Shown here one piece after another: positions 39,146-52,908 of a stretch of DNA of 64,000 nt. The translations under genes and the position numbers were made by a program. The stretch spans positions 62,001-126,000 of the forward strand of contig JAPKMP010000012.1 in assembly GCA_026645935.1 (NCBI GenBank), read 5' to 3'. Source of the DNA: Candidatus Villigracilaceae bacterium. Lineage in GTDB: Bacteria; Chloroflexota; Anaerolineae; Anaerolineales; Villigracilaceae. Every line of letters starts with the position of its first letter. Within the stretch, counting starts at the first letter, position 1. The notes beneath the pieces are model-generated. The model saw only the letters and a program-made list of their open reading frames with translations. It ran no database searches and was not told the origin of the DNA.

Positions 39146-39175
39146 GTTGACAGCCCTACCCATGTGGCTGTCAAC
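39146..39175 (+). terminator. Second hairpin after the Nudix gene
   Basis: Perfect 10-bp arms (GTTGACAGCC with GGCTGTCAAC) and a 10-nt loop are followed by TATTTT. This is the better terminator of the pair and ends 22 nt before the next start codon, so it could instead attenuate that gene. Confidence 0.5.
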
Positions 39176-39197
39176 TATTTTCGTCAATGGAGGTTCC

Positions 39198-39761
39198 ATG
39201 TTACAAAATATTTCGCAAAAGTTTCATCAATGGGCAAAAGGCGGGCTGGTGCTTGGAATGCTGGTCGTCTACGGATTCTTCGCAGGCTATATGATGCCGC
39301 AAATGGCCGCATGGATGAATTCCGCCGCCGGTCAGAGCGTGACCCCGCTGGACCTGATGATGTACTACACTCCACAGCAGGCATTCGAGATGATGGAACG
39401 GTACGGCGAAGCAGGCCGCTCGGCATATCTCACCATCGAACTGACCGCCGACATTATTTACCCGCTCTCGACAGTGTTGTTTTTCTCGCTGTTTCTTTCG
39501 TGGCTTTTTCAGCGCGGATATAAACCCGGAAACGCGATGCAAAAATTCAACATCATGCCGGCCGGCTCCTGGCTGTTCGATCTGGTCGAAAACACCGCGA
39601 TCATCCCCATGATTCTGATGCATCCCGCTCAATCCGCCGCGCTGGCATGGATCGCCATGGCGCTGGGGCTTGTGAAGTGGGGTTTCGCATTTATCAGTCT
39701 TGGGCTGGTACTGGTCGGCATTGTCAAGGCGGCGTTGAACGGTTTCAAACTGCAATCGTAA
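39198..39761 (+). CDS. Four-helix membrane protein of unknown function
   Basis: A 187-residue integral membrane protein with about four predicted helices (roughly 14-32, 75-98, 112-135 and 145-178). A soluble loop (33-72) contains YYTPQQAFEMMERYGEAGR. The start at 39198 has GGAGG 4 nt upstream. No family was recognised, though similar four-helix proteins are annotated as hypothetical in many bacteria. It is a single gene preceded by the double hairpin. Its 3' end overlaps the convergent cdsA end by 17 nt. Confidence 0.65.
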   Translation: MLQNISQKFHQWAKGGLVLGMLVVYGFFAGYMMPQMAAWMNSAAGQSVTPLDLMMYYTPQQAFEMMERYGEAGRSAYLTIELTADIIYPLSTVLFFSLFLSWLFQRGYKPGNAMQKFNIMPAGSWLFDLVENTAIIPMILMHPAQSAALAWIAMALGLVKWGFAFISLGLVLVGIVKAALNGFKLQS

Positions 39762-40635
39762 TCAAAAGATAAAAAACCGGCGCGGCAAAGATCAAGCCAT
39801 CGAACCGGTCCATTACTCCGCCCTGAGCCCCAAGCATGGCGGAGTAATTTCGTTTACCCAGTGCGCGTTTCCACATCGAGGCGGTCAGGTCGCCGATCAG
39901 GCCCGCCAGCCCGATCGTAAATCCGATCATGCCTGCTGTGATGTGCGTCATCCCAATTGACTGACCTAGAGCAACTGCCATTGCAACAGCGAATAAAAGT
40001 CCGCCGATTGCGCCCTCGACCGTTTTTGCCGGGCTGACCTGCGGAGCCAATTGCCTGCGTCCGAAAGACTGCCCGATGATCTGCGCGAAGGCATCATTCG
40101 TGGCAATGACGAGATACAGAAAAGCGGCTCGAAACCCTGCCGGGTCGTTTTGTTGAATCCAAATATATGTTGTGAGGCATATCGGAAGATATACCAGACA
40201 CCCGGCAATAACGAAGGCGAACGAGGGATAATCCTCTGGTTTACGGGTCAAAGTCCCCATCGAAAAGAGGACCAATGTCAATGCAAGCCAGGCTTTCAGC
40301 CAGATCTCGATTGGAAAAAAATCGGCAAGAACGATTCCCGTAAAAGTGACAGCCGCAAAACAGAAGGCCAGCGAAGGCAGCCTGAGCGCATTCGATATCT
40401 CCCAGGAAGCGAAGGCTCCCAATAACCCAAGCAGAATGGTCAACGCATGCCAATTTGGCGGGAGCCAGCCCGCGGCTACAAAACAAAGGTTGATGAAAAT
40501 ATAAAGCGGATATTTCCGCCAGACACTTTCGCCCGTTCCATTCGGGCGCAGCCAGCGGCGGGCAAACGCAAGGAATGTAGCAATCACCAGGAAAAAACCA
40601 TAGATGAGAAGCACGTTCCAATGAAGGGCTGTCAT
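39745..40635 (-). CDS. cdsA: Phosphatidate cytidylyltransferase (CdsA-like)
   Basis: This 296-residue polytopic membrane enzyme transfers CMP from CTP to phosphatidate or another lipid phosphate. The C-terminal family signature is present (SMWKRALGKRNYS followed by GGVMDRFDGL), with KRN where many members have KD. About eight helices are predicted. It is the last gene of a coupled operon and starts 4 nt inside the PEP-synthase-like gene. In this setting it may make the CDP-activated lipid used by the CDP-alcohol phosphatidyltransferase upstream, possibly from an unusual lipid phosphate. Confidence 0.88.
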   Translation of the reverse strand: MTALHWNVLLIYGFFLVIATFLAFARRWLRPNGTGESVWRKYPLYIFINLCFVAAGWLPPNWHALTILLGLLGAFASWEISNALRLPSLAFCFAAVTFTGIVLADFFPIEIWLKAWLALTLVLFSMGTLTRKPEDYPSFAFVIAGCLVYLPICLTTYIWIQQNDPAGFRAAFLYLVIATNDAFAQIIGQSFGRRQLAPQVSPAKTVEGAIGGLLFAVAMAVALGQSIGMTHITAGMIGFTIGLAGLIGDLTASMWKRALGKRNYSAMLGAQGGVMDRFDGLIFAAPVFYLLITIAV

Positions 40636-43040
40636 GGGAGAATTTTCACCGTACCGCGTCCGCCGTTCATTTCCACCCGGTCACCGCTCTTTACCCGCCT
40701 CGTTAAGTTTGGGATATTGACAATGATGGGCTTGCCCAACTCGCGGGCGACGATGGCAGAATGAGAAAGCGGACTGCCGCGCTCGACCAAAATCCCTGAT
40801 GCGGAAGGATACAGAAAGACCCAGCCGGGGTCGGTTCGTTCGGCAACCAAAACCTGACCGCCAAGATCGCTGATTTCGTTCACGCTGTAAACCACGCGGG
40901 CTTTTCCAGTCACAATGCCGGAGCAGCAGCCCACGCCCTGCAGATCCGCGTCATCCGCCATCGGGCGCACCAGCAGGTCACGAGGCGAATCAAGGTATGG
41001 GATGCCAAACGTCTCGAACCGGTCGGGCAGACTCACTGAACCGGTTTTGTATACCGCATACTCGGTGCGGCGCATGGACACAATGCTTTTCAAATTTTGT
41101 GTGACCGCCGTGCCATGCACAAAATCCCATATCTCACCGATGGTTAGATAATAAACATCCGCAGCCTGCGGCAATACTCCCACCTGCGCCCATTGCTTCC
41201 CAAGCGAATTCAAGATTCCGCGCAATAAACCGAACAAGCGCGAGCGCGCAAAGCGAAGGTTCTCACGATTGCGAACATACCGGCGCGCATTGTTCAAGAT
41301 CCATTGGAAGGCGAATCGTTTGTGAAGCGGCAAAGCGGACAAACGCGCTTCGGCTCGGATTCGGACCGGGGAATGCTCGGGCATCTCAGACGGATTCTTC
41401 GCCGCGGCCGCGATCATCCGGATCAACGGCAGAGGGTCATCCCGCAGATTGGGTTCCTCCAATTTGAGTTCGTTCATGCAGCGGTCGCCATAGGTTTGCA
41501 AATATTCATCAAATTCCAAACGAAAGGCGGCAATATTTTCCTGGTTCCGAATCCGCTCAAGGATTTCAACCGGCTCGAGATCGAATATGGCTCCGAGTTC
41601 CCGGTCGTTTCTAACGATGCGAGCCATCACCTGCACCCGCCTGGCGGGTTGAATCGACTCGATATCGCCATCCCCAGCCAAAAGGTCATTATGAAGCGAG
41701 TTTCCGGGTTCGAACCACTTCTCCGTCAGACGGCGTAAAATCCCGAAGAAAATCATCGCCAGAAAATCGTTCAGGATCGGGGCACGCCATTCCCCCAGCA
41801 CGCGCGTTTCAAGGTCGCGATATGACTCATGAAGTTGATGGGGCGTCATGGTCGAGAAATCCTTGGCGCGGTACTCCGCCAGGACGGTGTTGAAAGCAAG
41901 AAGAAAATCTTTCGCGCGGCGTTCGCTGGTGAGGTGTAGCCCGACCATGCGCATCCCCCAACCAAACAGAGCAAACCAACCGCCGGTTCTTTTACCGTGT
42001 GCTTCCCCTGCAGATTGCTTCACGCCCATCATTTGCTCGAGAAAACGCCGGTTTTGATCGAAGGCAGGCAGCCAGCTCAGGGCTTCATACCAGTTGAACA
42101 ATTGATAATAGACCTGCCCATTGTAAAAACCGAGCAGATTCTTCAGCACCGTCTCGTCCATTTCCTTTACGCCCATCAGGGACAGAAATTGACGATAGAC
42201 ATTCGCATATGAGCCGCGAATGATGGAAAACGTCAAAGGCGAAGTAATGCCCGAATAACTCTCGGTGATATTGGCGTTGTCCCATAGGATGTGTTCCGTG
42301 GGAATCGGCGTCGTAATGGGGCGGGCCTGAAGAATTGAAAGCCCGTCTTCGATAAAGGCAAATTCAATATCCTGCGGAGATTTGAACAGGGCTTCGATCC
42401 GACTGGAAACGGCAACCAAATCCACGACCTGACTCTTTTTTAATAAAGCCCCGTCTCCATCCCATTCTCCTGTCTCGCGGTTCACTCGAATGGTTTCCCC
42501 GCTGACAGTTCCCTGAACAAGCGCATCGCCCAATCCTTTTACAGCGGAAATCACCAGCCAGCGCGGGTCTCGCGTTGCGGGATCTGCCGTAAAAACAACA
42601 CCCGAGATAACCGCAGGCGCCATCGTTTGGAGGATCACTTCCATTTCGATCTTTTTATCTGACAATCCATTCTTAAGGCGATATGCCTGCGCCCTTTTAC
42701 CATACGCGGATGCCCAGCATTTTTTAACCGCACCGAGCAGCGCATCTTTGCCGCGAACGTTCAGAAAGGAGTCGAGCTGACCGGCAAAGGAATATTGGGC
42801 AGAGTCTTCTTCAGCGAGAGAGGAGCGAACCGCCAAATCCACATCCGGAAGTTGGCGCACAAGTTCAAGAATTTCATTTTGGATGGCCGCAGGTAAGTAT
42901 GCCTGTATGATGTTTTCTTCGTTCGCCCCGTCTGCCAAATTTGAGCGGAAGTCATCAAAGGTACGGGCGGGAACAACGACAAAAGACGGAACTCGAAAAC
43001 CCGCTTCACTCAAGACTCTTAAATTCGACGCCTTGCTCAT
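40632..43040 (-). CDS. PEP-synthase-like phosphotransferase (PPDK_N plus mobile His domain)
   Basis: An 802-residue protein. It has an ATP-grasp pyruvate/PEP-binding-type domain (about 1-250, AVRSSLAEED, SGVVFTADPATRDP), a long central domain (about 255-690, opening ITESYSGITSPLTFS) and a C-terminal swivelling domain with phosphohistidine H760 in GSPLSHSAIVAREL. Canonical PEP synthase ends in a TIM barrel that is absent here. The domain order is that of rifampicin-phosphotransferase-like enzymes, which use ATP to phosphorylate an acceptor via His. In this lipid-type operon it may phosphorylate an alcohol or prenyl acceptor. It overlaps both neighbours by 4 nt. Confidence 0.8.
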   Translation of the reverse strand: MSKASNLRVLSEAGFRVPSFVVVPARTFDDFRSNLADGANEENIIQAYLPAAIQNEILELVRQLPDVDLAVRSSLAEEDSAQYSFAGQLDSFLNVRGKDALLGAVKKCWASAYGKRAQAYRLKNGLSDKKIEMEVILQTMAPAVISGVVFTADPATRDPRWLVISAVKGLGDALVQGTVSGETIRVNRETGEWDGDGALLKKSQVVDLVAVSSRIEALFKSPQDIEFAFIEDGLSILQARPITTPIPTEHILWDNANITESYSGITSPLTFSIIRGSYANVYRQFLSLMGVKEMDETVLKNLLGFYNGQVYYQLFNWYEALSWLPAFDQNRRFLEQMMGVKQSAGEAHGKRTGGWFALFGWGMRMVGLHLTSERRAKDFLLAFNTVLAEYRAKDFSTMTPHQLHESYRDLETRVLGEWRAPILNDFLAMIFFGILRRLTEKWFEPGNSLHNDLLAGDGDIESIQPARRVQVMARIVRNDRELGAIFDLEPVEILERIRNQENIAAFRLEFDEYLQTYGDRCMNELKLEEPNLRDDPLPLIRMIAAAAKNPSEMPEHSPVRIRAEARLSALPLHKRFAFQWILNNARRYVRNRENLRFARSRLFGLLRGILNSLGKQWAQVGVLPQAADVYYLTIGEIWDFVHGTAVTQNLKSIVSMRRTEYAVYKTGSVSLPDRFETFGIPYLDSPRDLLVRPMADDADLQGVGCCSGIVTGKARVVYSVNEISDLGGQVLVAERTDPGWVFLYPSASGILVERGSPLSHSAIVARELGKPIIVNIPNLTRRVKSGDRVEMNGGRGTVKILP

Positions 43041-43960
43041 GACCAGGTCAGCCCATGCGAGCGGATCAATTCCACCGCCAAAAGAATATCGAAGGCAAAG
43101 ATGAACATCCCTGCATAAATCTGCAGGCTTGCTGCCGTCCTGCCCGTCGTTTTAATATAAAAGAACAAAACGCCAAATACGACCACCCCCAACAGCGCTG
43201 CGACCGCTGCGTGATACCACCAGGCGAAATCCATTTGAGCGCCGACGATCATACTGACCACGCCCGAAAACAACAACGCCAGCAGGCTGATGAAAGCGGA
43301 ACGATACGGTCCCATCACAGCCGAATATGTAATCAGCCCTTCGCGTTCATCCGCAGGCGCGCGCGTTTTGCGGGCAACTTCATACCCGAACCCCACTCCA
43401 TAGCTGACCCAGGCATAGAGCAATATCGGCATGGGCGCCAGCCAGAACGACCTGTCGACGGCAACGGAAAATACAAACAGACAATAACAAGGCATGATCA
43501 ACAAGTGAATAAATGCATTCGCCAGCAGATGTCTTTCAAGGATTTCCGCGATAAAAAATTCCTTGTAGATAAGCCAGGAAAAGGCAAGTACCACCAGGCA
43601 CATCACGAACGCCGGAACCCCCAAAAGAAGACTCAGTGTCACTTCGGCGACCACTGCAACGATGCCCGCATTCCGAAGTTGTTTCAACGTGACCAATCCA
43701 CGTGAAAGCACCCGCTCCGGGTGTACGATACGATCCTGCTCATAATCCTTGTGTTCGTCTATGACCCGCATATGAAAGAACATGAACAACAAAACCAGGC
43801 AACCCGCAGCGAATCTCCACGACATTTCAAGGGGCTGGCTTTTACCGAAAACCGCGCCAAGCGCAAGTAGATAGTTGGCTGTGAAATAAGAAACGATTAG
43901 GAGTCCGTTCGCATGTAAAGGAAAACGTTCCTGCAAGTATGCCCAAAAATGTTTTATCAT
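43037..43960 (-). CDS. UbiA-like membrane prenyltransferase
   Basis: This 307-residue protein has eight or nine predicted helices. The first aspartate motif lies in MRVIDEHKDYEQDRIVHPER (DxxxDxxxD form) and a second acidic motif in RKTRAPADEREG, matching the two diphosphate/Mg sites of the UbiA superfamily. Members attach isoprenoid chains to aromatic, glycerol or sugar acceptors. It starts 4 nt inside the OleC-like gene and overlaps the PEP-synthase-like gene. No quinone or chlorophyll genes are near, so a lipid-type acceptor is plausible. Acceptor and prenyl length are unknown. Confidence 0.75.
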   Translation of the reverse strand: MIKHFWAYLQERFPLHANGLLIVSYFTANYLLALGAVFGKSQPLEMSWRFAAGCLVLLFMFFHMRVIDEHKDYEQDRIVHPERVLSRGLVTLKQLRNAGIVAVVAEVTLSLLLGVPAFVMCLVVLAFSWLIYKEFFIAEILERHLLANAFIHLLIMPCYCLFVFSVAVDRSFWLAPMPILLYAWVSYGVGFGYEVARKTRAPADEREGLITYSAVMGPYRSAFISLLALLFSGVVSMIVGAQMDFAWWYHAAVAALLGVVVFGVLFFYIKTTGRTAASLQIYAGMFIFAFDILLAVELIRSHGLTWS

Positions 43961-45513
43961 CCAAATCTCTTTGTTTTCAAGCGCTTGTAATCCAACCTTG
44001 AGTTATGGCGGGCATCCACCGGCAGGCGGCGGGCTGCATGGACCTCATCCAGCGCCCAGCCATGCTCACCGCACAAGGCGCGCAATTGATTCGCCCAATC
44101 TTTTGGTTTTGGCGAATTTTCCGCGAATTCTACTATTAATACAGAACGCTCACCCAGCTTCGAGTCCGGCACTCCAATCAATGCCGCGCGGCGCACGAAC
44201 GGCAAAGCTTCCGCCATCGTTTCCACAAACACCGGGTATAAAATTTTTTCATCGCGCACAACAATCGTGTTCACCCGCCCGGCAAGCCATAAAAGACCGG
44301 TCTCGTCCTTGTAACCCATGTCACCCATGCAATGCCATAAAACGCCGTCCGAGTAGAATCGTTTATTTTTTGATTCCGCCGTCGGGTTGGAAAAATATTT
44401 CCGCGCCACATGATTCCCGCCTACCCAAATTTCACCCACCTGACCTGTCTCAAGCTCAATCCCGTCCGCACTTAGAATCCGGATTCTGACCTCGGGCACG
44501 CTTCTTCCCAACGGGATGCCTGCCCTGGGCGCTCCAGGCTTTTTTATCTCATCCATGGCATCGCTACTATTAATGACCGCAACCGGTTCCGCTTCTGTAC
44601 TGCCATAAACGTTTACGATCTCTGCGCGAGGTGCAACGCGTTCCAGTTTTTCCAATAAGAAGGGCGAAACCGGCGCTCCGCCTGTGACAATGCGCCGCAG
44701 AGGTAGAGTCCGCTGAAGGCGCAGGCAATGGTCCACAATCACAGACCAGTAAGCGGGTGGTCCCGATGCGGTTGTAACTTCATGCTGACGAATCTGTTCG
44801 AGAATCCGTTCCGGTCGAACTGCTTCCGGGCGGCGAAATGGAAAATCCGGGATGACGCTTGGCACGCCGGATGCCAGATTGTGCAAAGTCGCAATCGGGA
44901 ATGCAGGCATGTCGATATCCGAGGTGTCATTGGGCAGCGCGCGACTCAATGCGGCATGTTGTGCAGCCAGCAATCCGTGAGTGCGAATCACGCCGCGCGG
45001 ACCCAATGGATCGGTACTTCCGCCCGTAAATGTGATCAACGCCGGAGATTCGAGGTCCACTTCGCAGATTTCGGAGTGCGGTGAAAAGGAAACAGCCAGA
45101 CGATTCAACGAAAGCCTGGAATTTCCATCCGCTAGAAAAACACGGGGGATGCGGCGCAAGCCTGGTAAAAACCACCGCAGCCAATCTATCCTTTGACTAC
45201 AGATCAATCCATCCGGTCGTATCGAAGAGATCGTCTTCCCCAATTGTCCAAATCCGCTTTGCGGATCGTGGAACACCGGCGTGGCTCCCATTTTGAATAA
45301 TGCGATCAGACCAGCATAAAGGTTTAATGAAATCGGAGCCAACACAACGACCCGGCTCCTTGTATTCAAGCCGCTTCCAACAAAGCCCCCCGCCAACCGG
45401 GACGATAATTCATCAAGATGCCGAAAAGAAAAAATGGATGGATGACTTGTCGGAAAAATAAGCGCAGGACGATCCGGCTCGGGCACCGAGCCAAGCAGGG
45501 ATGCAATGTTCAT
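43957..45513 (-). CDS. AMP-dependent synthetase, OleC-like
   Basis: A 518-residue ANL-superfamily enzyme that activates a carboxylate with ATP. The P-loop is altered to TFTGGSTDPLGPRGV, where TSGTTGxPKG is usual, so the P-loop lysine is an arginine. VYGSTEAEPVA, GDMGYKDETGLLWLAGR and a final region with RLDYKRLK carry the remaining motifs. The spacing and TEAEPVA/MGDMGY context resemble OleC beta-lactone synthetases more than acyl-CoA synthetases. Product could be an acyl adenylate, thioester or lactone. It overlaps the GNAT and UbiA-like genes by 4 nt each. Confidence 0.78.
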   Translation of the reverse strand: MNIASLLGSVPEPDRPALIFPTSHPSIFSFRHLDELSSRLAGGFVGSGLNTRSRVVVLAPISLNLYAGLIALFKMGATPVFHDPQSGFGQLGKTISSIRPDGLICSQRIDWLRWFLPGLRRIPRVFLADGNSRLSLNRLAVSFSPHSEICEVDLESPALITFTGGSTDPLGPRGVIRTHGLLAAQHAALSRALPNDTSDIDMPAFPIATLHNLASGVPSVIPDFPFRRPEAVRPERILEQIRQHEVTTASGPPAYWSVIVDHCLRLQRTLPLRRIVTGGAPVSPFLLEKLERVAPRAEIVNVYGSTEAEPVAVINSSDAMDEIKKPGAPRAGIPLGRSVPEVRIRILSADGIELETGQVGEIWVGGNHVARKYFSNPTAESKNKRFYSDGVLWHCMGDMGYKDETGLLWLAGRVNTIVVRDEKILYPVFVETMAEALPFVRRAALIGVPDSKLGERSVLIVEFAENSPKPKDWANQLRALCGEHGWALDEVHAARRLPVDARHNSRLDYKRLKTKRFG

Positions 45514-46541
45514 GATCGGAGTTGCCGTGTGTACAAGGTGTACTCCCGCGTTACTTCACCCAAGCCGCCGTCAAATTTATCGGCGCGGTTGCCTGCCCGT
45601 AACATACAATGATTCACACATTTGTATCCTTTTTGCTTAAAACGCCGATACACTTCATAGGCAAGCGCCGCGCCGACCCCCTCCCCGCGGACGCGTGGCA
45701 ATACGCCAAAGGTTTTGACGTTCACCGTCCCGGTCATACGGTGATCGACAAACGAATAACATAATCCCACCGGGTTCTGCTGCGGATCCAAAATGAATAG
45801 CAACAGATCGGGGTCGAGCCTGCCAGCCGCACCCGCGTACAAGGCGCGAAATTCGTTTTCGGAAATATCAGTGAAATAATAATTTTCGCGGAACATATCT
45901 GTCGAGAGCCGGTAAACCAAGGACATTTCTGCAGATGCATCGGCTGGGTTGAAAGCCCGGACGGAATATCCCCAAGAGATCGCGCGTGAATGATATTCCC
46001 GCCACACATTCAGAACAGGATCCAGGTCGTTAACCATTTTGGTGACATAACGGGTGATGGGGGCAAAACCAAGTCTTTCCAACATTCCCGGATAATACGC
46101 CGGGTTACAGGGTTCCATGAGGAAGGTCGGCTGGTCGAAGCCTTTGGTGCGAAGGCGGTACGGGTGCCAAGTGTCAAAGTTCATCGGCGCAAAAATCGTG
46201 GATTTGGGTCCCAGTTTTGACCTCAACCAGGTCAGCGCTCCATCGACCATCCATTGCGCAGCCTGAAGATCATCATTGCAATCAAAGAAACCCAATTGTC
46301 CATAAGGCTGACCGTGTTCGTCACGCAGCAAAGGGTTGATGATGGCGGTGACTCTTCCGACAATTTCGTTTCCATTCAAGACCAAAAAATTCCGCCAGAG
46401 GGAGGAGGAAAATCCGTCGGTGAGCAACCGCTCCTCATCGGGATCGGGCAGCCAGTTCGGGTCTGAGGCGTAAAGTCGCTGTGGAAAATCCAAAAATCGT
46501 TTCAGCAAGTCCCGGTCGAAATCAAAATCCAATACCTTCAT
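45510..46541 (-). CDS. GNAT-family N-acetyltransferase-like protein
   Basis: A 343-residue protein. Its opening FPQRLYASDPNWLPDPDEERLL and the C-terminal acetyl-CoA-binding stretch TFGVLPRVRGEGVGAALAYE (R/Q-x-x-G-x-G/A type) match large GNAT-fold proteins of the YghO type. The start at 46541 is chosen because it gives a 4-nt overlap with the upstream gene, as in the rest of the operon, and because the 60 residues added by the longer frame have no family character. It may acylate an amino group of a lipid or head-group intermediate; this is inference. Confidence 0.75.
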   Translation of the reverse strand: MKVLDFDFDRDLLKRFLDFPQRLYASDPNWLPDPDEERLLTDGFSSSLWRNFLVLNGNEIVGRVTAIINPLLRDEHGQPYGQLGFFDCNDDLQAAQWMVDGALTWLRSKLGPKSTIFAPMNFDTWHPYRLRTKGFDQPTFLMEPCNPAYYPGMLERLGFAPITRYVTKMVNDLDPVLNVWREYHSRAISWGYSVRAFNPADASAEMSLVYRLSTDMFRENYYFTDISENEFRALYAGAAGRLDPDLLLFILDPQQNPVGLCYSFVDHRMTGTVNVKTFGVLPRVRGEGVGAALAYEVYRRFKQKGYKCVNHCMLRAGNRADKFDGGLGEVTREYTLYTRQLRS

Positions 46542-47164
46542 GGAGTATGAATACCGATCAGATGGAGGCAAAGATAGGCAAACGCCACAGCCAGGATGAT
46601 GATGGACTGAAGAACATATCGGGTCGGCTTTGGAAAACGCAAATTGCGAATCATGAAAAAACTCATCAGGAACAGGATCTGCGCCAGTATAAACCGGGAG
46701 ATATCCCCCAGCCAGGACCAAAGCGGAAACGCCAACACAACGAAAAGCTGACTCCAGATCACTTGCAGACCGATGTGGTAGGCAGTCCCCGCTTCCTCCA
46801 CGACGCCGGTCATGTTGAACTTCGAAAGCCTGAGCAGGCCGCCGGCGAGATATGCGAATAGCGAAATTATCGAAAGCGCGTCGTTCATGCCAATCTGAAA
46901 TAAAATGTATAACGGCAGGACCAGATATGTAAATACGTCGCAGAAACCATCCAGCTGTTTGCCGAATTCGCTTTCCAATTTCAAACGCCTCGCGATCAGG
47001 CCATCGAACATATCCGCGAACATCGCGCTCAACATGAATACGATGGCGAGACTAAGCCGACCTCGCGCAGCCTGATATAAACCGAGAGCGGAGAGCACCA
47101 AACTTCCCAGAGTTAAAACATCCACCCAGGTTGGAGAGACAATGAAATAATCTTTTCGATTCAT
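46538..47164 (-). CDS. CDP-alcohol phosphatidyltransferase
   Basis: This 208-residue membrane enzyme joins a CDP-activated lipid to an alcohol and releases CMP. The catalytic signature DGxxARx8Gx3Dx3D is complete (D54, G55, A58, R59, G68, D72, D76). About six helices are predicted. It could be a phosphatidylserine, inositol-phosphate or glycerol-phosphate type; the sequence does not decide. It overlaps the lipid-kinase-like and GNAT genes by 4 nt. With cdsA in the same operon, both steps of a CDP-lipid pathway are present. Confidence 0.9.
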   Translation of the reverse strand: MNRKDYFIVSPTWVDVLTLGSLVLSALGLYQAARGRLSLAIVFMLSAMFADMFDGLIARRLKLESEFGKQLDGFCDVFTYLVLPLYILFQIGMNDALSIISLFAYLAGGLLRLSKFNMTGVVEEAGTAYHIGLQVIWSQLFVVLAFPLWSWLGDISRFILAQILFLMSFFMIRNLRFPKPTRYVLQSIIILAVAFAYLCLHLIGIHTP

Positions 47165-48039
47165 ACGATACAGCGAAGTTTACCCGGCAAAATCTCGAAA
47201 CGAACTTCATGGATGTCCTCCCATAACTCCCCATCGATCATAAGCCGCTTGGGATTCGGAAGCTTTAATGTCAGGCAACGAGCAGGCTTCTCTTCCGCTG
47301 TCCGATAAAAATAAGTGCGGCTCAGCACAGCCAGATTATGGGTGAATTGTCCCCAAAAGCCTGCCTTCGCCAACAGAATCTCGAATTTGCCGTCGCCGGT
47401 ATCCGATTTCCGAAATGCGCGGAAATTCCCCGCATGGCGGGTATTGTTTATCATGACGTTGGTTAATTTACGTTCCTGAAAAGGGCTGTCGTCGATGGAT
47501 ACTTTCAGGGAGAAGGCAGGTTGGCGCATTGCCTGAAGGGTGGCAGACAGCGGATAACACCAACTCCCCAGTTGTTTGAAGTAGCGATTCGCCAGTGAGA
47601 CCACTTCCGCAGCGTATCCAATAGACGCAGTGCTGATGGCAAGCCGCGATCTCGTTTGGTCTGAGGATCGAAAGATTATCTGTATCAGGTCAAGTGCGCG
47701 AAATTCATTTCTTTTTGCGGCGAGGAAGGCGGCATCCAGAGAGGTGACGGCGAAGTCGCGCGCCAGCCCGTTGCCCGTTCCGCCCGCGAGAAGCAACAAA
47801 CTCTGCCGATCCAAATCCATACCGTTGACGACTTCTGCAACCGTTCCGTCGCCGCCGAAAACAGCGATATGATCACAGGTCGCGCCGCGGGCAAGTTCCT
47901 CCGCATGACCGTGGCGCTCCGTAAAGGCGACCTCTGTTTGAAGTTCATCCTCAAGGCGCCTTGCAAAGGATTCCTTCCAAGACGAGGAACGCGGATGCCC
48001 GGCAACCGGGTTGACAATTGCCAGCCAGCGGACTGTCAT
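47161..48039 (-). CDS. Diacylglycerol/lipid kinase family protein (LCB5/YegS-like)
   Basis: A 292-residue soluble or peripheral kinase of the DAGK_cat family. The nucleotide-binding motif FGGDGTVAEVVNG (GGDGT at residues 62-66) and the opening VNPVAGHPRSS are intact, and GTGNGLARDF continues the catalytic site. It transfers phosphate from ATP to a lipid hydroxyl such as diacylglycerol or a long-chain base. It is the first of seven genes linked by 4-nt overlaps and lies 24 nt after the unknown 204-residue gene. It would supply the lipid phosphate that CdsA activates. Confidence 0.9.
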   Translation of the reverse strand: MTVRWLAIVNPVAGHPRSSSWKESFARRLEDELQTEVAFTERHGHAEELARGATCDHIAVFGGDGTVAEVVNGMDLDRQSLLLLAGGTGNGLARDFAVTSLDAAFLAAKRNEFRALDLIQIIFRSSDQTRSRLAISTASIGYAAEVVSLANRYFKQLGSWCYPLSATLQAMRQPAFSLKVSIDDSPFQERKLTNVMINNTRHAGNFRAFRKSDTGDGKFEILLAKAGFWGQFTHNLAVLSRTYFYRTAEEKPARCLTLKLPNPKRLMIDGELWEDIHEVRFEILPGKLRCIV

Positions 48040-48063
48040 GTAACGATATTCTTCGCCCTGGCA

Positions 48064-48678
48064 TTAATGCACAGTGATTTCCTCGCGCCAGTCGACGTAC
48101 CATTTGGCTAAGCCCGCCCAATCGGATACCTTACCAGAGGCGTCTGCGGCTAGCACCCTGCGCTGAAAATCCAGAAGTTGGGCGGGAGTCAGCGCCAGCC
48201 TCCGGTTCGGCGTGCCATGCAGACCGGGAATCACCAGCCATTGTTTGTTGACGTAGACGATCGTAAGCTGAAGGTCCTCGTTGCCACTCGGGTCGATCAG
48301 AACTTCCTGCCAATACGTATCGACCTTGACGATCTTATGCACGGCGGTGTTGCTCAGGATCGGCATCGCCAATGCGGCTTTCAGGCAGGGCACCATCATG
48401 AACTTCACGATCCGATATTCTTCCTCGGCGCTGATCGTGTCATCCGAGAATGCCTGTACCAGGTTGCCCACATTTTCGCTTTTCAACGGAATGACGAAGT
48501 TCGGCTTTTTGGCATGAAACCCGGATACCACCTCCGCGCTGTCTCCACGATGCAGAATGGTATATTTTTCACCCGTATCCGTTATTTCAAGATGAACCTG
48601 GGTAAACAAACCCTTGAACCACTCAAGCACGGACTTCTTTTGGGTCAATTGTTCAAGCAAAGATTGATTCGAACTCAT
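48064..48678 (-). CDS. Unknown 204-residue protein at the head of the lipid-type operon
   Basis: A soluble protein without signal peptide. The first 110 residues (LEWFKGLFTQVHLEITDTGEKY, GFHAKKPNFVIPL, ISAEEEYRIVKFMM) loosely recall a sterol-carrier (SCP2-like) fold, a lipid-binding type, but the match is weak. The second half (QLTIVYVNKQWLVIPGLHG, LDFQRRVLAADASG) was not recognised. A good Shine-Dalgarno sequence (AGGAGG) precedes the ATG. It lies 24 nt before the lipid-kinase-like gene on the same strand, so it is probably co-expressed and might carry a lipid intermediate. Confidence 0.6.
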   Translation of the reverse strand: MSSNQSLLEQLTQKKSVLEWFKGLFTQVHLEITDTGEKYTILHRGDSAEVVSGFHAKKPNFVIPLKSENVGNLVQAFSDDTISAEEEYRIVKFMMVPCLKAALAMPILSNTAVHKIVKVDTYWQEVLIDPSGNEDLQLTIVYVNKQWLVIPGLHGTPNRRLALTPAQLLDFQRRVLAADASGKVSDWAGLAKWYVDWREEITVH

Positions 48679-48749: not shown

Positions 48750-49442
48750 TTATATGTTCAGCCACCACACACCGGTACATTCCGGCAGAATCGTCCATTT
48801 TTTTTGTCCGACCTGATTCGCCAACTCGTCGCCGAAGAAGAAGCGGGAAAGCTCATCTGCTTCAGCAAGGGATTCAAACATGTAATCCGTGCGGATCCAT
48901 TTGTTTCGAAATCCGACTTCATCCAACCATGGATAAAAATCCTTGAGGTGTTCGAGCCTGACGGGAGACTCGTTCCCCGTACCAAACGATTCAAAGAGGA
49001 CGATGGGGCTTCCCGGCTTTAGAACGCGTTTCATTTCCGCGAGCCAATTCTCCAGTTCTCTCTTCCAAGTATCAGGATTCCATACCGCCAGGTAACTTAC
49101 ACTCCACCCAGAGACAGCCAGGTTGGCAGATTGATCCGACACGGGGAGTTTTCTATGATCGGCGATTTCCACCCGCCAGTTCGACAATCCGCTTTTGACT
49201 AATTTCTCGCGGCAAACCCGCAGCATTTCCTCCGACACGTCAAAGGCGCGGACGCCAGTCACATGCGGCGCAAGCATGCAGGCCAATCTCCCGGTGCCCG
49301 CTCCGAGGTCCAAAACGAGGCGGTCTTCGAGAGGCGTGATCTCCTTCAGGGATTTGAGAATGTTTCCCTGATAATCCTCGCGCGCGATCAACGCCTCGTA
49401 TTTATCCCCTTCGGTCTTGTAGATTTCTTCCTGAGTAGTCAT
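48750..49442 (-). CDS. SAM-dependent class I methyltransferase
   Basis: This 230-residue methyltransferase has motif I in VLDLGAGTGRLACML (about residues 42-56), a following acidic residue in RAFDVSEEM and a VSGWSVSYL motif IV region. It uses S-adenosylmethionine on an unknown small molecule. The start at 49442 was chosen because the sequence upstream has no family character. It is 71 nt upstream of the lipid-type operon on the same strand, so co-transcription is possible but not shown. Confidence 0.85.
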   Translation of the reverse strand: MTTQEEIYKTEGDKYEALIAREDYQGNILKSLKEITPLEDRLVLDLGAGTGRLACMLAPHVTGVRAFDVSEEMLRVCREKLVKSGLSNWRVEIADHRKLPVSDQSANLAVSGWSVSYLAVWNPDTWKRELENWLAEMKRVLKPGSPIVLFESFGTGNESPVRLEHLKDFYPWLDEVGFRNKWIRTDYMFESLAEADELSRFFFGDELANQVGQKKWTILPECTGVWWLNI

Positions 49443-49524
49443 GGGCTGATTATAAATCAGTCCCCTGGCGGGTTTTTTGACCAGAGGCGGTTGTGCTATT
49501 CTCCTGCAACAAAGGAGAAGACAG

Positions 49525-51780: not shown

Positions 51781-52908
51781 ATGGCAACAAAAGCGAAAAC
51801 TGAATCGCGCCCCATGACCGAAGAGGCGGATTTCCTCCAAATCAAGTCGGTTGACCATGTCCATTTCTATGTGGGCAATGCCAAGCACGCCATGTATTAT
51901 TGGTGGAAGGCGTACGGATTCAAACCCGTCGCTTATTCGGGATTGGAAACCGGCAACCGCGAATTCGCTTCGTACGTGCTCGAATCGGGCCAGGCGCGCT
52001 TTGTCGTCTCCGCGCCTTATTCCCCTTCCAGCCCGCTTGCGTCCCATCACATGGTTCATGGCGACGGCGTCAAAGTCATCGCGCTCGGCGTGGACGATGT
52101 GGAAAATGCCTGGCGCGAGACCACCAGCCGCGGAGCCAAATCCGCGTGGATGCCGCGCGACGAAAAGGATGATTTCGGCATTTACCGCACATCCGCCATC
52201 TATACATACGGCGAGACCCTGCACGTCTTCGTAGACCGCGACGATTACAAAGGCGCCTTCGCTCCCACCTACAAAGCTATCAATTACGAAACCGACTCCA
52301 CCGGGCTCGCCGCCATCGACCACATCGTCGGCAACGTGCAGCTCGGCAAGATGAATCACTGGGTTAATTTCTATCATCGGGTGATGGGCTTCCGTCAGCT
52401 CATGCACTTCGACGACAAGGACATTTCCACCGAGTATTCCGCGCTCATGTCCAAGGTCATGCAGAATGGGAACGGACGGGTCAAGTTCCCGATCAACGAA
52501 CCCGCGGAGGGTAAACGCAAAAGCCAGATAGAAGAATATCTCGATTACTATCTCACACCAGGCGCGCAGCATGTCGCCATCATCACCGGCGATATCATCG
52601 AAACCGTCGACAAGCTCCGTAAAAACGGCGTGGAATTCCTGCGCGTGCCGGACACCTACTACGAAATGCTTCCCGACCGTGTGGGCAAGATCAAAGAAGA
52701 TTTCAAGACCATTCACGAACTTGGCATTTTGGTCGATAAAGACGACGAAGGCTATCTCCTGCAGATATTCACCCGCCCCATTCAGGACCGCCCCACCATG
52801 TTCATCGAGGTGATTCAACGCCACGGCGCGCAGGGATTCGGCAAGGGAAACTTCAAAGCCCTGTTCGAATCACTCGAATTGGAACAGGAACGACGCGGGA
52901 ATCTATAG
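51781..52908 (+). CDS. hppD: 4-hydroxyphenylpyruvate dioxygenase
   Basis: A 375-residue Fe(II) enzyme that converts 4-hydroxyphenylpyruvate and O2 to homogentisate in tyrosine catabolism. It has tandem vicinal-oxygen-chelate domains. The iron ligands are expected in IDHIVGNV (His), GAQHVAI (His) and MFIEVIQRHG (Glu). The C-terminal RHGAQGFGKGNFKALFESLE is diagnostic. GGAG precedes the ATG. hmgA lies 1.7 kb downstream in what looks like one operon with two lipoproteins between. O2 dependence implies at least facultative aerobic life. Confidence 0.95.
   Translation: MATKAKTESRPMTEEADFLQIKSVDHVHFYVGNAKHAMYYWWKAYGFKPVAYSGLETGNREFASYVLESGQARFVVSAPYSPSSPLASHHMVHGDGVKVIALGVDDVENAWRETTSRGAKSAWMPRDEKDDFGIYRTSAIYTYGETLHVFVDRDDYKGAFAPTYKAINYETDSTGLAAIDHIVGNVQLGKMNHWVNFYHRVMGFRQLMHFDDKDISTEYSALMSKVMQNGNGRVKFPINEPAEGKRKSQIEEYLDYYLTPGAQHVAIITGDIIETVDKLRKNGVEFLRVPDTYYEMLPDRVGKIKEDFKTIHELGILVDKDDEGYLLQIFTRPIQDRPTMFIEVIQRHGAQGFGKGNFKALFESLELEQERRGNL

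Follow-up and report, generated by a model that had tools for sequence, protein, structure and literature searches.

An eight-gene cassette in a Villigracilaceae genome

The stretch of DNA analysed here (hereafter, the window) comprises 64,000 nucleotides (62001-126000) of contig JAPKMP010000012.1 from a Candidatus Villigracilaceae bacterium (phylum Chloroflexota, class Anaerolineae; genome G000) and carries, on its minus strand, a block of eight genes, A to H, that runs from 48678 down to 39745. Genes B-H (39745-48039) are chained by six ATGA overlaps (47161-47164, 46538-46541, 45510-45513, 43957-43960, 43037-43040, and 40632-40635), and gene A (48064-48678) lies upstream of this chain across a gap of 24 nucleotides (nt). 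An original prediction, made from the letters alone, had described seven genes welded by six 4-nt overlaps into a lipid or terpenoid operon. Every overlap was found where it had been placed, and seven genes do overlap, although the block totals eight, with gene A standing apart. The families assigned at that time agree with the Pfam matches for B-H. In order of transcription, the genes are:

48064..48678, minus: gene A, 204-amino-acid (aa) protein with a possible SCP2-like lipid-carrier fold (predicted structure)
47161..48039, minus: gene B, DAGK/YegS-like lipid kinase (PF00781, DAGK_cat, 72 bits)
46538..47164, minus: gene C, cytidine diphosphate (CDP)-alcohol phosphatidyltransferase, closest to phosphatidylserine synthase (PF01066, CDP-OH_P_transf, 47 bits)
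45510..46541, minus: gene D, tandem-GNAT acyltransferase (PF00583, 29 bits)
43957..45513, minus: gene E, OleC-like ANL (AMP-binding) protein (PF00501, 151 bits)
43037..43960, minus: gene F, divergent UbiA-superfamily transferase (PF01040, 56.2 bits)
40632..43040, minus: gene G, phosphoenolpyruvate (PEP)-synthase-like phosphohistidine phosphotransferase (PPDK_N, 172 bits, plus PEP-utilizers, 79 bits)
39745..40635, minus: gene H, CdsA-type cytidine triphosphate (CTP) transferase (PF01148, CTP_transf_1, 140 bits)

Single ATGA overlaps are common in the window: a rough set of open reading frames, in which two of the six operon overlaps were not captured, contained 43 same-strand neighbour pairs, nine of them permitting a 4-nt overlap and five of these nine lying outside the operon. 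The conservation of gene order beyond the window genome, which the original prediction had proposed as a check, was found at two further loci, L015 (in genome G027) and L023 (in UWPOB_ANAER1), where A-H stand in the same order; together with the window, these are referred to as window-type loci. All six overlaps are kept in L015, and in L023 four of the six are exact with ATG, with D-E at +2 and E-F offering TTG at -4 or ATG at -1/+2.

A class-wide sample of 249 genomes was searched with F and A. F was matched at E<=0.001 in 12 of these genomes, five times strongly (E 1e-18 or better; G000, G027, G200, G170, and G206) and seven times weakly. By the same search, G027 alone was positive among five other genomes of the genus, and seven genomes of the family and two of the order were negative. 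In G213 (L137), a genome without the operon, a run of consecutive genes comprises homologues of pirin, Nudix, the gene at 39147-39761, the methyltransferase, and YbaK, and the matches to the two window genes on either side of the operon are separated by 44 bp; in G111, pirin and YbaK are directly adjacent. Because the flanking genes adjoin in an operon-less sister genome, the limits of the cassette coincide with those drawn by the original prediction. Between syntenic flanks, the cassette thus occurs whole or not at all. A class I methyltransferase gene (48750-49448, minus strand), 71 nt upstream of gene A, is syntenic in L015 and L023, and its presence in the operon-less G213, G179, G130, and G089 rules it out as a cassette member.

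The original prediction had named two outcomes that would count against it, and neither holds: one, a gene order confined to this genome, is contradicted by L015 and L023, and the other was that cdsA and the CDP-alcohol transferase are the organism's only housekeeping copies and the remaining genes are passengers. PF01148 is present in two copies in G000 (the other CdsA copy lies on contig C11) and in G027, and in one copy in each of the other 13 of 15 family and order genomes searched. PF01066 is present in four copies each in G000 and G027, and genomes without the operon carry three (G061, G179), two (G111, G213, G130), or one (G089). Both cassette genes are extra copies, and the reading of housekeeping copies plus passengers is rejected by these counts and by the site without the operon. 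Taken together, the block is one discrete lipid-biosynthesis cassette that is real, conserved, and functionally coherent; the earlier description of an operon of lipid-type enzymes with a kinase/CdsA/CDP-alcohol-transferase head-group module is supported.

Relatives of the cassette in other phyla

A five-member F alignment searched against genome contigs yielded 146 relatives, of which the best 80 loci were kept; with L015, L017 (in G170), and L018 added, and L016 dropped as lying on the same contig as L052 (in G200), 83 loci were counted, the window itself uncounted. Besides homologues of the window genes, these loci contain three genes that we denote T (a DUF3419 protein), R (a paralogue of 3-hydroxy-3-methylglutaryl coenzyme A [HMG-CoA] reductase), and K (a putative lipid kinase). 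F is present in 83 loci, G in 77, T in 60, D in 53, E in 51, K in 49, and R in 33, and F and G stand within about 1.3 kb of one another on one strand in 76 of the 83. Neighbour clustering gave the recurrent order R-F-G-T-K-D-E, with T-K-D-E-F-G in Clostridia. Pfam, run on representative neighbour proteins, matched F to UbiA, G to PPDK_N plus PEP-utilizers, D to GNAT, E to AMP-binding, R to HMG-CoA reductase, and T to DUF3419 (PF11899); T in the remaining loci was assigned by BLAST scores, with PF11899 checks in L077, L018, L029, L032, and G200 (L052). According to record titles, carriers of F include cyanobacteria, planctomycetes, verrucomicrobia, clostridia, acidobacteria, elusimicrobia, and proteobacteria, as well as Trueperaceae, Brevibacillus, and Acidimicrobiia. 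The eight-gene block is almost certainly a variant of this cross-phylum operon, which probably builds an undescribed lipid. The operon is not specific to Chloroflexota, since the kernel (F, G, D, and E) occurs in operons of many phyla, in which a DUF3419 protein takes the place of the missing phospholipid-type module. As had been supposed, no description of the gene set or its pathway was found among open-licence PubMed Central papers.

The distribution of T sets the window-type loci apart. Among the 49 loci that contain F, G, D, and E (window uncounted), T is present in 47, and the two exceptions are L015 and L023, which are also the only loci among the 83 where C and H occur; no DUF3419 protein (PF11899) was found in the window genome. 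A further 28 loci contain F and G without D or E, some of them ending at contig ends, and T is present in 13 of these and absent from 15. In G170 (L017), one of these 15, the T gene is found away from the operon. We consider T to be tied to the kernel because it is fused to G in Obscuribacterales, where the two form one polypeptide in L029 and L032 (by Pfam) and L057 (by BLAST). The best match of T to solved structures had an E-value of 0.72. At the Bdellovibrionales locus L035, the only one of the 83 outside the window type with a B-like kinase, this kinase (47 bits) directly follows F; an ANL-like C-terminus is seen by eye in frame before F, where Pfam gives UbiA alone. It is likely that T and the B/C/H module, though unrelated, replace one another as functional equivalents.

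Gene A and gene K are less uniform companions of the kernel. In the class-wide sample, A was found in four of 249 genomes, all four within the five with strong F matches; its homologues adjoin kernel genes in G027, L023, and L084 (in the last beside D-E-F-G-T) and lie away from them in G170 and G206. Across the genomes of 50 loci, A was seen in that of L084 and as one weak partial match in G293, and because it is near-absent from these 50 carrier genomes of other lineages, it is restricted to a minority of operons. Few of 37 K members have Pfam matches, all weak (DUF92 in four, CTP_transf_1 in one), and phmmer found no match in the PDB for the K of L083; its motifs presumably resemble those of VTE5/SEC59, and its identity as a kinase is putative. 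Trees built for G and for F group the three window-type sequences with L018 as their sister, but weakly (support 0.44 and 0.74, respectively).

Several relatives carry additional genes. L034, L058, L098, and L101 encode a second, lower-scoring PEP-synthase-like protein, either as the neighbour of an aminotransferase III/reductase-like protein or in fusion with it; at the Nocardia locus L101, a single open frame comprises the aminotransferase, a reductase-like domain, and the PEP-synthase-like part, and sulfotransferase and P450 family genes lie nearby in L034, L058, and L098. A family of 706-725 aa proteins occurs in or adjoining the operon in L078, L081, L086, and L092, and Pfam places the L078 member in the MMPL/RND type, a match that would be consistent with a lipid product being exported. 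In L041, L043, L049, and L075, F is preceded upstream by a radical SAM protein (identified by Pfam in L075) and by a membrane protein of two repeats that has no Pfam match and that we take to resemble lycopene cyclase domains. In G086 (L134, 6917-8776), what we take to be a UbiA-like gene adjoins a presumed YegS-like lipid kinase, with a B match in L012; this pair is possibly a distant parallel to B plus F.

Enzyme families and a proposed route

The head-group genes resemble known phospholipid enzymes at a distance. B scored 80.9 bits with TIGR00147, under the cut-off of 118.65, and C scored 78.1 bits with TIGR00473 (pssA), under the cut-off of 107 yet the best of 11 NCBIfam models. Among solved structures, C is closest to the phosphatidylserine synthases 7pow (E 1.1e-8) and 7b1k (E 1.7e-8), both of which we take to be archaeal, with phosphatidylinositol synthase at 0.0035; with the archaetidylserine synthase model it scored 66.5 bits. 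H scored 80.7 bits with CdsA (PRK11624) vs 21.3 bits with CarS (PRK04032), both below cut-off.

For gene A, no Pfam or NCBIfam match was found at E<=0.01. Its AlphaFold model (predicted local distance difference test score, pLDDT, 83) retrieved nothing at E<=0.001 with Foldseek, where the top rows were TsaB chains at a probability of 0.33 or less and the high-probability rows, none at E<=0.001, were mostly SCP2/UbiJ chains; the best VIA-align match was to SCP2-like 3bdq (Z 8.3, 94 residues, root-mean-square deviation 3.3). The model lends moderate support to a possible SCP2-like fold. For gene D, the ATG at 46541 was taken as the start in preference to the TTG at 46721, and the model (pLDDT 92.1) matched tandem GNATs in Foldseek, including mycothiol synthase MshD, an amine acyltransferase.

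Gene E scored 360 bits with PRK09274 and, with curated OleC models, 214.4 of 900 and 179.3 of 850, both below cut-off. At its catalytic A10 position, the window, L015, L023, and L018 have Arg and the other 48 of 52 sequences Lys; in L018 the A10 change occurs alone, the change of the P-loop Lys not being shared. The Lys-to-Arg change looks selected because it is kept across 57-66% identity. The F profile is closest, among solved structures, to digeranylgeranylglyceryl phosphate (DGGGP) synthase 6m31 (E 2.3e-8). Eight F residues (D68, E69, K71, D72, D76, E194, R197, and K198) are invariant in 84 of 84 sequences, the first Asp-rich motif (D68, D72, and D76) being present in all of them. Gene G matched 25 NCBIfam models, all under their cut-offs, and its His760 is invariant in the 73 sequences that have a residue there; three more are gapped at this position.

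R, which is found in part of the operons of relatives, appears to be an altered enzyme. In 30 aligned copies (from 33 loci), the catalytic Lys691, Asp767, and His866 are kept in all 30 and Glu559 in 29, the remaining copy being gapped there. The positions of Lys735 and Ser684 (human numbering), which we take to be HMG pocket residues, are changed: the former is M in 20, V in three, I, A, and T in two each, and F in one, and the latter is Glu in all 30. The human and 6hr7 chains served as class I controls because Anaerolineae HMG-CoA reductases were too distant. Of the 80 genomes from which the loci come, 50 were tested for HMG-CoA reductase and mevalonate kinase; 19 of these carry R (out of 33 R loci in all) and 31 do not. 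Each of the 19 R carriers has one HMG-CoA reductase gene, except G288 (L078), whose R copy (L126) agrees with the residue pattern of the others and whose second HMG-CoA reductase gene adjoins a mevalonate kinase. Among the 31 genomes without R, 30 had no HMG-CoA reductase and G272 (L037) had an R-type copy elsewhere. Mevalonate kinase exceeded its curated cut-off in G288 alone of the 50 genomes, 36 others being sub-threshold, and thus in none of the other 18 of the 19 R carriers. The altered HMG pocket and the missing mevalonate kinase disfavour mevalonate as a building block or as a supply of isopentenyl diphosphate, and together they would fit an R that reduces an acyl thioester of more hydrophobic character. 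Because 30 tested carriers lack HMG-CoA reductase, neither mevalonate as a precursor nor the R step is universal. In the window genome, the sole HMG-CoA reductase lies outside the cassette and is of another class.

Our best overall explanation, to which we assign a probability of about 0.5, is that the window cassette is a variant of the cross-phylum operon in which the head-group modules have been swapped and that it would make an N-acylated amino-acid lipid, the chemistry being read from enzyme families. At the level of families this statement is firm, and the chemistry is put forward as a hypothesis. In a first step, G would place a phosphate or diphosphate on an alcohol via ATP and phosphohistidine, and F, which is related to the ether-forming UbiA enzyme of archaea, would couple an activated chain to an alcohol acceptor, the F/G pair making the hydrophobic core; that G feeds F by (pyro)phosphorylating the alcohol is itself rather doubtful. 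B would then phosphorylate a remaining hydroxyl, H would make a CDP-lipid, and C would exchange cytidine monophosphate for serine, yielding a phosphoserine head. In the T-type operons of other lineages, a single step would lead to a comparable amino-acid head, a homoserine ether: T would transfer a 3-amino-3-carboxypropyl group from S-adenosylmethionine (SAM). An amino-acid head is proposed because the relatives of C are phosphatidylserine synthases and BtaA-type enzymes move an aminocarboxypropyl group; a product with such a head in both operon types is slightly favoured, and the chances that the window-type head is serine are about even. In a third step, D would N-acylate the head-group amine with E handling the acyl group, which we suggest tentatively, and A may carry a hydrophobic intermediate. 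A fuller version, in which a new lipid class spans many phyla, with G moving pyrophosphate from ATP straight onto a long-chain alcohol, F etherifying the alkyl diphosphate, R supplying the alcohol in some carriers as an HMG-CoA reductase converted to a fatty-acyl reductase, and N-acylated heads that are phosphate-free (homoserine ether) or, in this Chloroflexota lineage, phosphate-bearing (phosphoserine), would be a long shot.

Several points weigh against this explanation. Both key lysines of gene E, that of the P-loop and the catalytic A10 Lys, are Arg in the window, L015, and L023, and so E may not adenylate. In F, at what we take to be the position of the second Asp-rich motif of UbiA prenyltransferases, all 84 sequences have ExxRK (E194, R197, and K198), and without this motif any donor and acceptor named for F are tentative. 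Serine as the substrate of C is a guess because of the score below the pssA cut-off, and the transfer of an aminocarboxypropyl group from SAM by DUF3419 proteins is assumed from BtaA. If T alkylates a hydroxyl, K would have no evident role in T-type operons. T is absent from 17 of the 77 F+G loci, namely the two window-type ones and 15 where D or E is missing as well, and the cross-phylum loci are the best 80 of the 146 F relatives. Finally, the window-type loci are not independent evidence for gene order because they share flanking genes too.

Alternative products and known systems

The strongest alternative is that the product is no membrane lipid but an exported, lipid-tailed secondary metabolite made by a mobile biosynthetic gene cluster, in which the head-group module would be a tailoring set. 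Such a cluster would account for the patchy distribution (five strong F matches in 249 class genomes) and the clean presence or absence within one genus, and some relatives have sulfotransferase, P450, aminotransferase-reductase, or MMPL-type transporter genes; however, no transporter, regulator, or resistance gene was recognised among the eight genes, and a GC content of 0.525 in the cassette vs 0.540 in its surroundings does not suggest that it was acquired recently from a foreign source. We regard this alternative as possible but unlikely.

An archaeal-type isoprenoid ether phospholipid, with F acting as DGGGP synthase on a prenylated glycerol, H as CarS, and C as archaetidylserine synthase, B rescuing phosphate, and D, E, and G decorating the product, is improbable. 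The closeness of F to 6m31 and of C to archaetidylserine synthase and to 7pow/7b1k speaks for it, but H is CdsA-like rather than CarS-like, the second Asp motif of F is replaced, and no geranylgeranylglyceryl phosphate synthase or other enzyme prenylating glycerol-1-phosphate was recognised in the block, the only part of the genome searched for one; D, E, and G are presumably foreign to archaeal lipid synthesis. Very improbable is an ordinary quinone or aromatic prenyltransferase F sharing a transcript by chance with loosely related lipid genes: F resembles PRK05951 and PRK13592 below cut-off, and what we take to be a 4-hydroxyphenylpyruvate dioxygenase-like gene (51781-52908, plus strand; syntenic in L015 and L023) lies 3 kb off, but F adjoins G in 76 of 83 loci with D and E recurring across phyla, the block comes and goes as a unit, and the seven weak UbiA loci L008-L014 (about 3.5 kb each) have no G, D, E, or C, with a B-like kinase in L012.

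The cassette shares parts with several known systems. With phospholipid head-group assembly it has in common, within one operon, the same three enzyme kinds (diacylglycerol kinase, CdsA, and phosphatidylserine synthase) in B, H, and C, but its C and H are extra copies, and they share their operon with F, G, D, and E, a kernel not known to us from any phospholipid pathway. Like betaine-lipid synthesis by BtaA/BtaB, related operons carry a BtaA-family DUF3419 protein (PF11899), whereas the window genome has none. Among the neighbour proteins of the representative operons scanned, no methyltransferase partner was recognised beside T. G200 has, besides its operon T, a separate DUF3419 gene and a methyltransferase-like gene (L103, 851-2715), a pair that we take to resemble betaine-lipid synthesis. 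E is OleC/PRK09274-like, but it differs from the beta-lactone synthetase OleC of the olefin pathway in scoring far below cut-offs, in its replaced catalytic Lys, and in that the block includes no recognised OleA. Like rifampin phosphotransferase and PigC/RedH, G combines ATP-binding and phosphohistidine domains, and it keeps His760; it differs in falling below all NCBIfam cut-offs and in its partner genes. The closest analogue in kind, compared by description only, is the ebo operon, which likewise is conserved across phyla, encodes a divergent UbiA protein (EboC), and has no known product (PMC5133447); its genes include an AroB-superfamily enzyme, and phosphoenolpyruvate is nowhere mentioned in the main text of that paper.

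The operon is kept across many phyla, and no product for it was found in searches of open-licence PubMed Central papers. The window offers a lever on that product, in that one lineage appears to have exchanged a SAM-dependent head-group gene for a set comprising a kinase, CdsA, and a phosphatidylserine-synthase-like enzyme, and from this exchange of a SAM-dependent gene for a phospholipid-type set an amino-acid head group is therefore predicted. The product could accordingly be sought with labelled serine in window-type carriers and with labelled methionine in T-type carriers. If true, the altered HMG-CoA reductase and the alcohol-activating PEP-synthase-like enzyme would be new enzymology.

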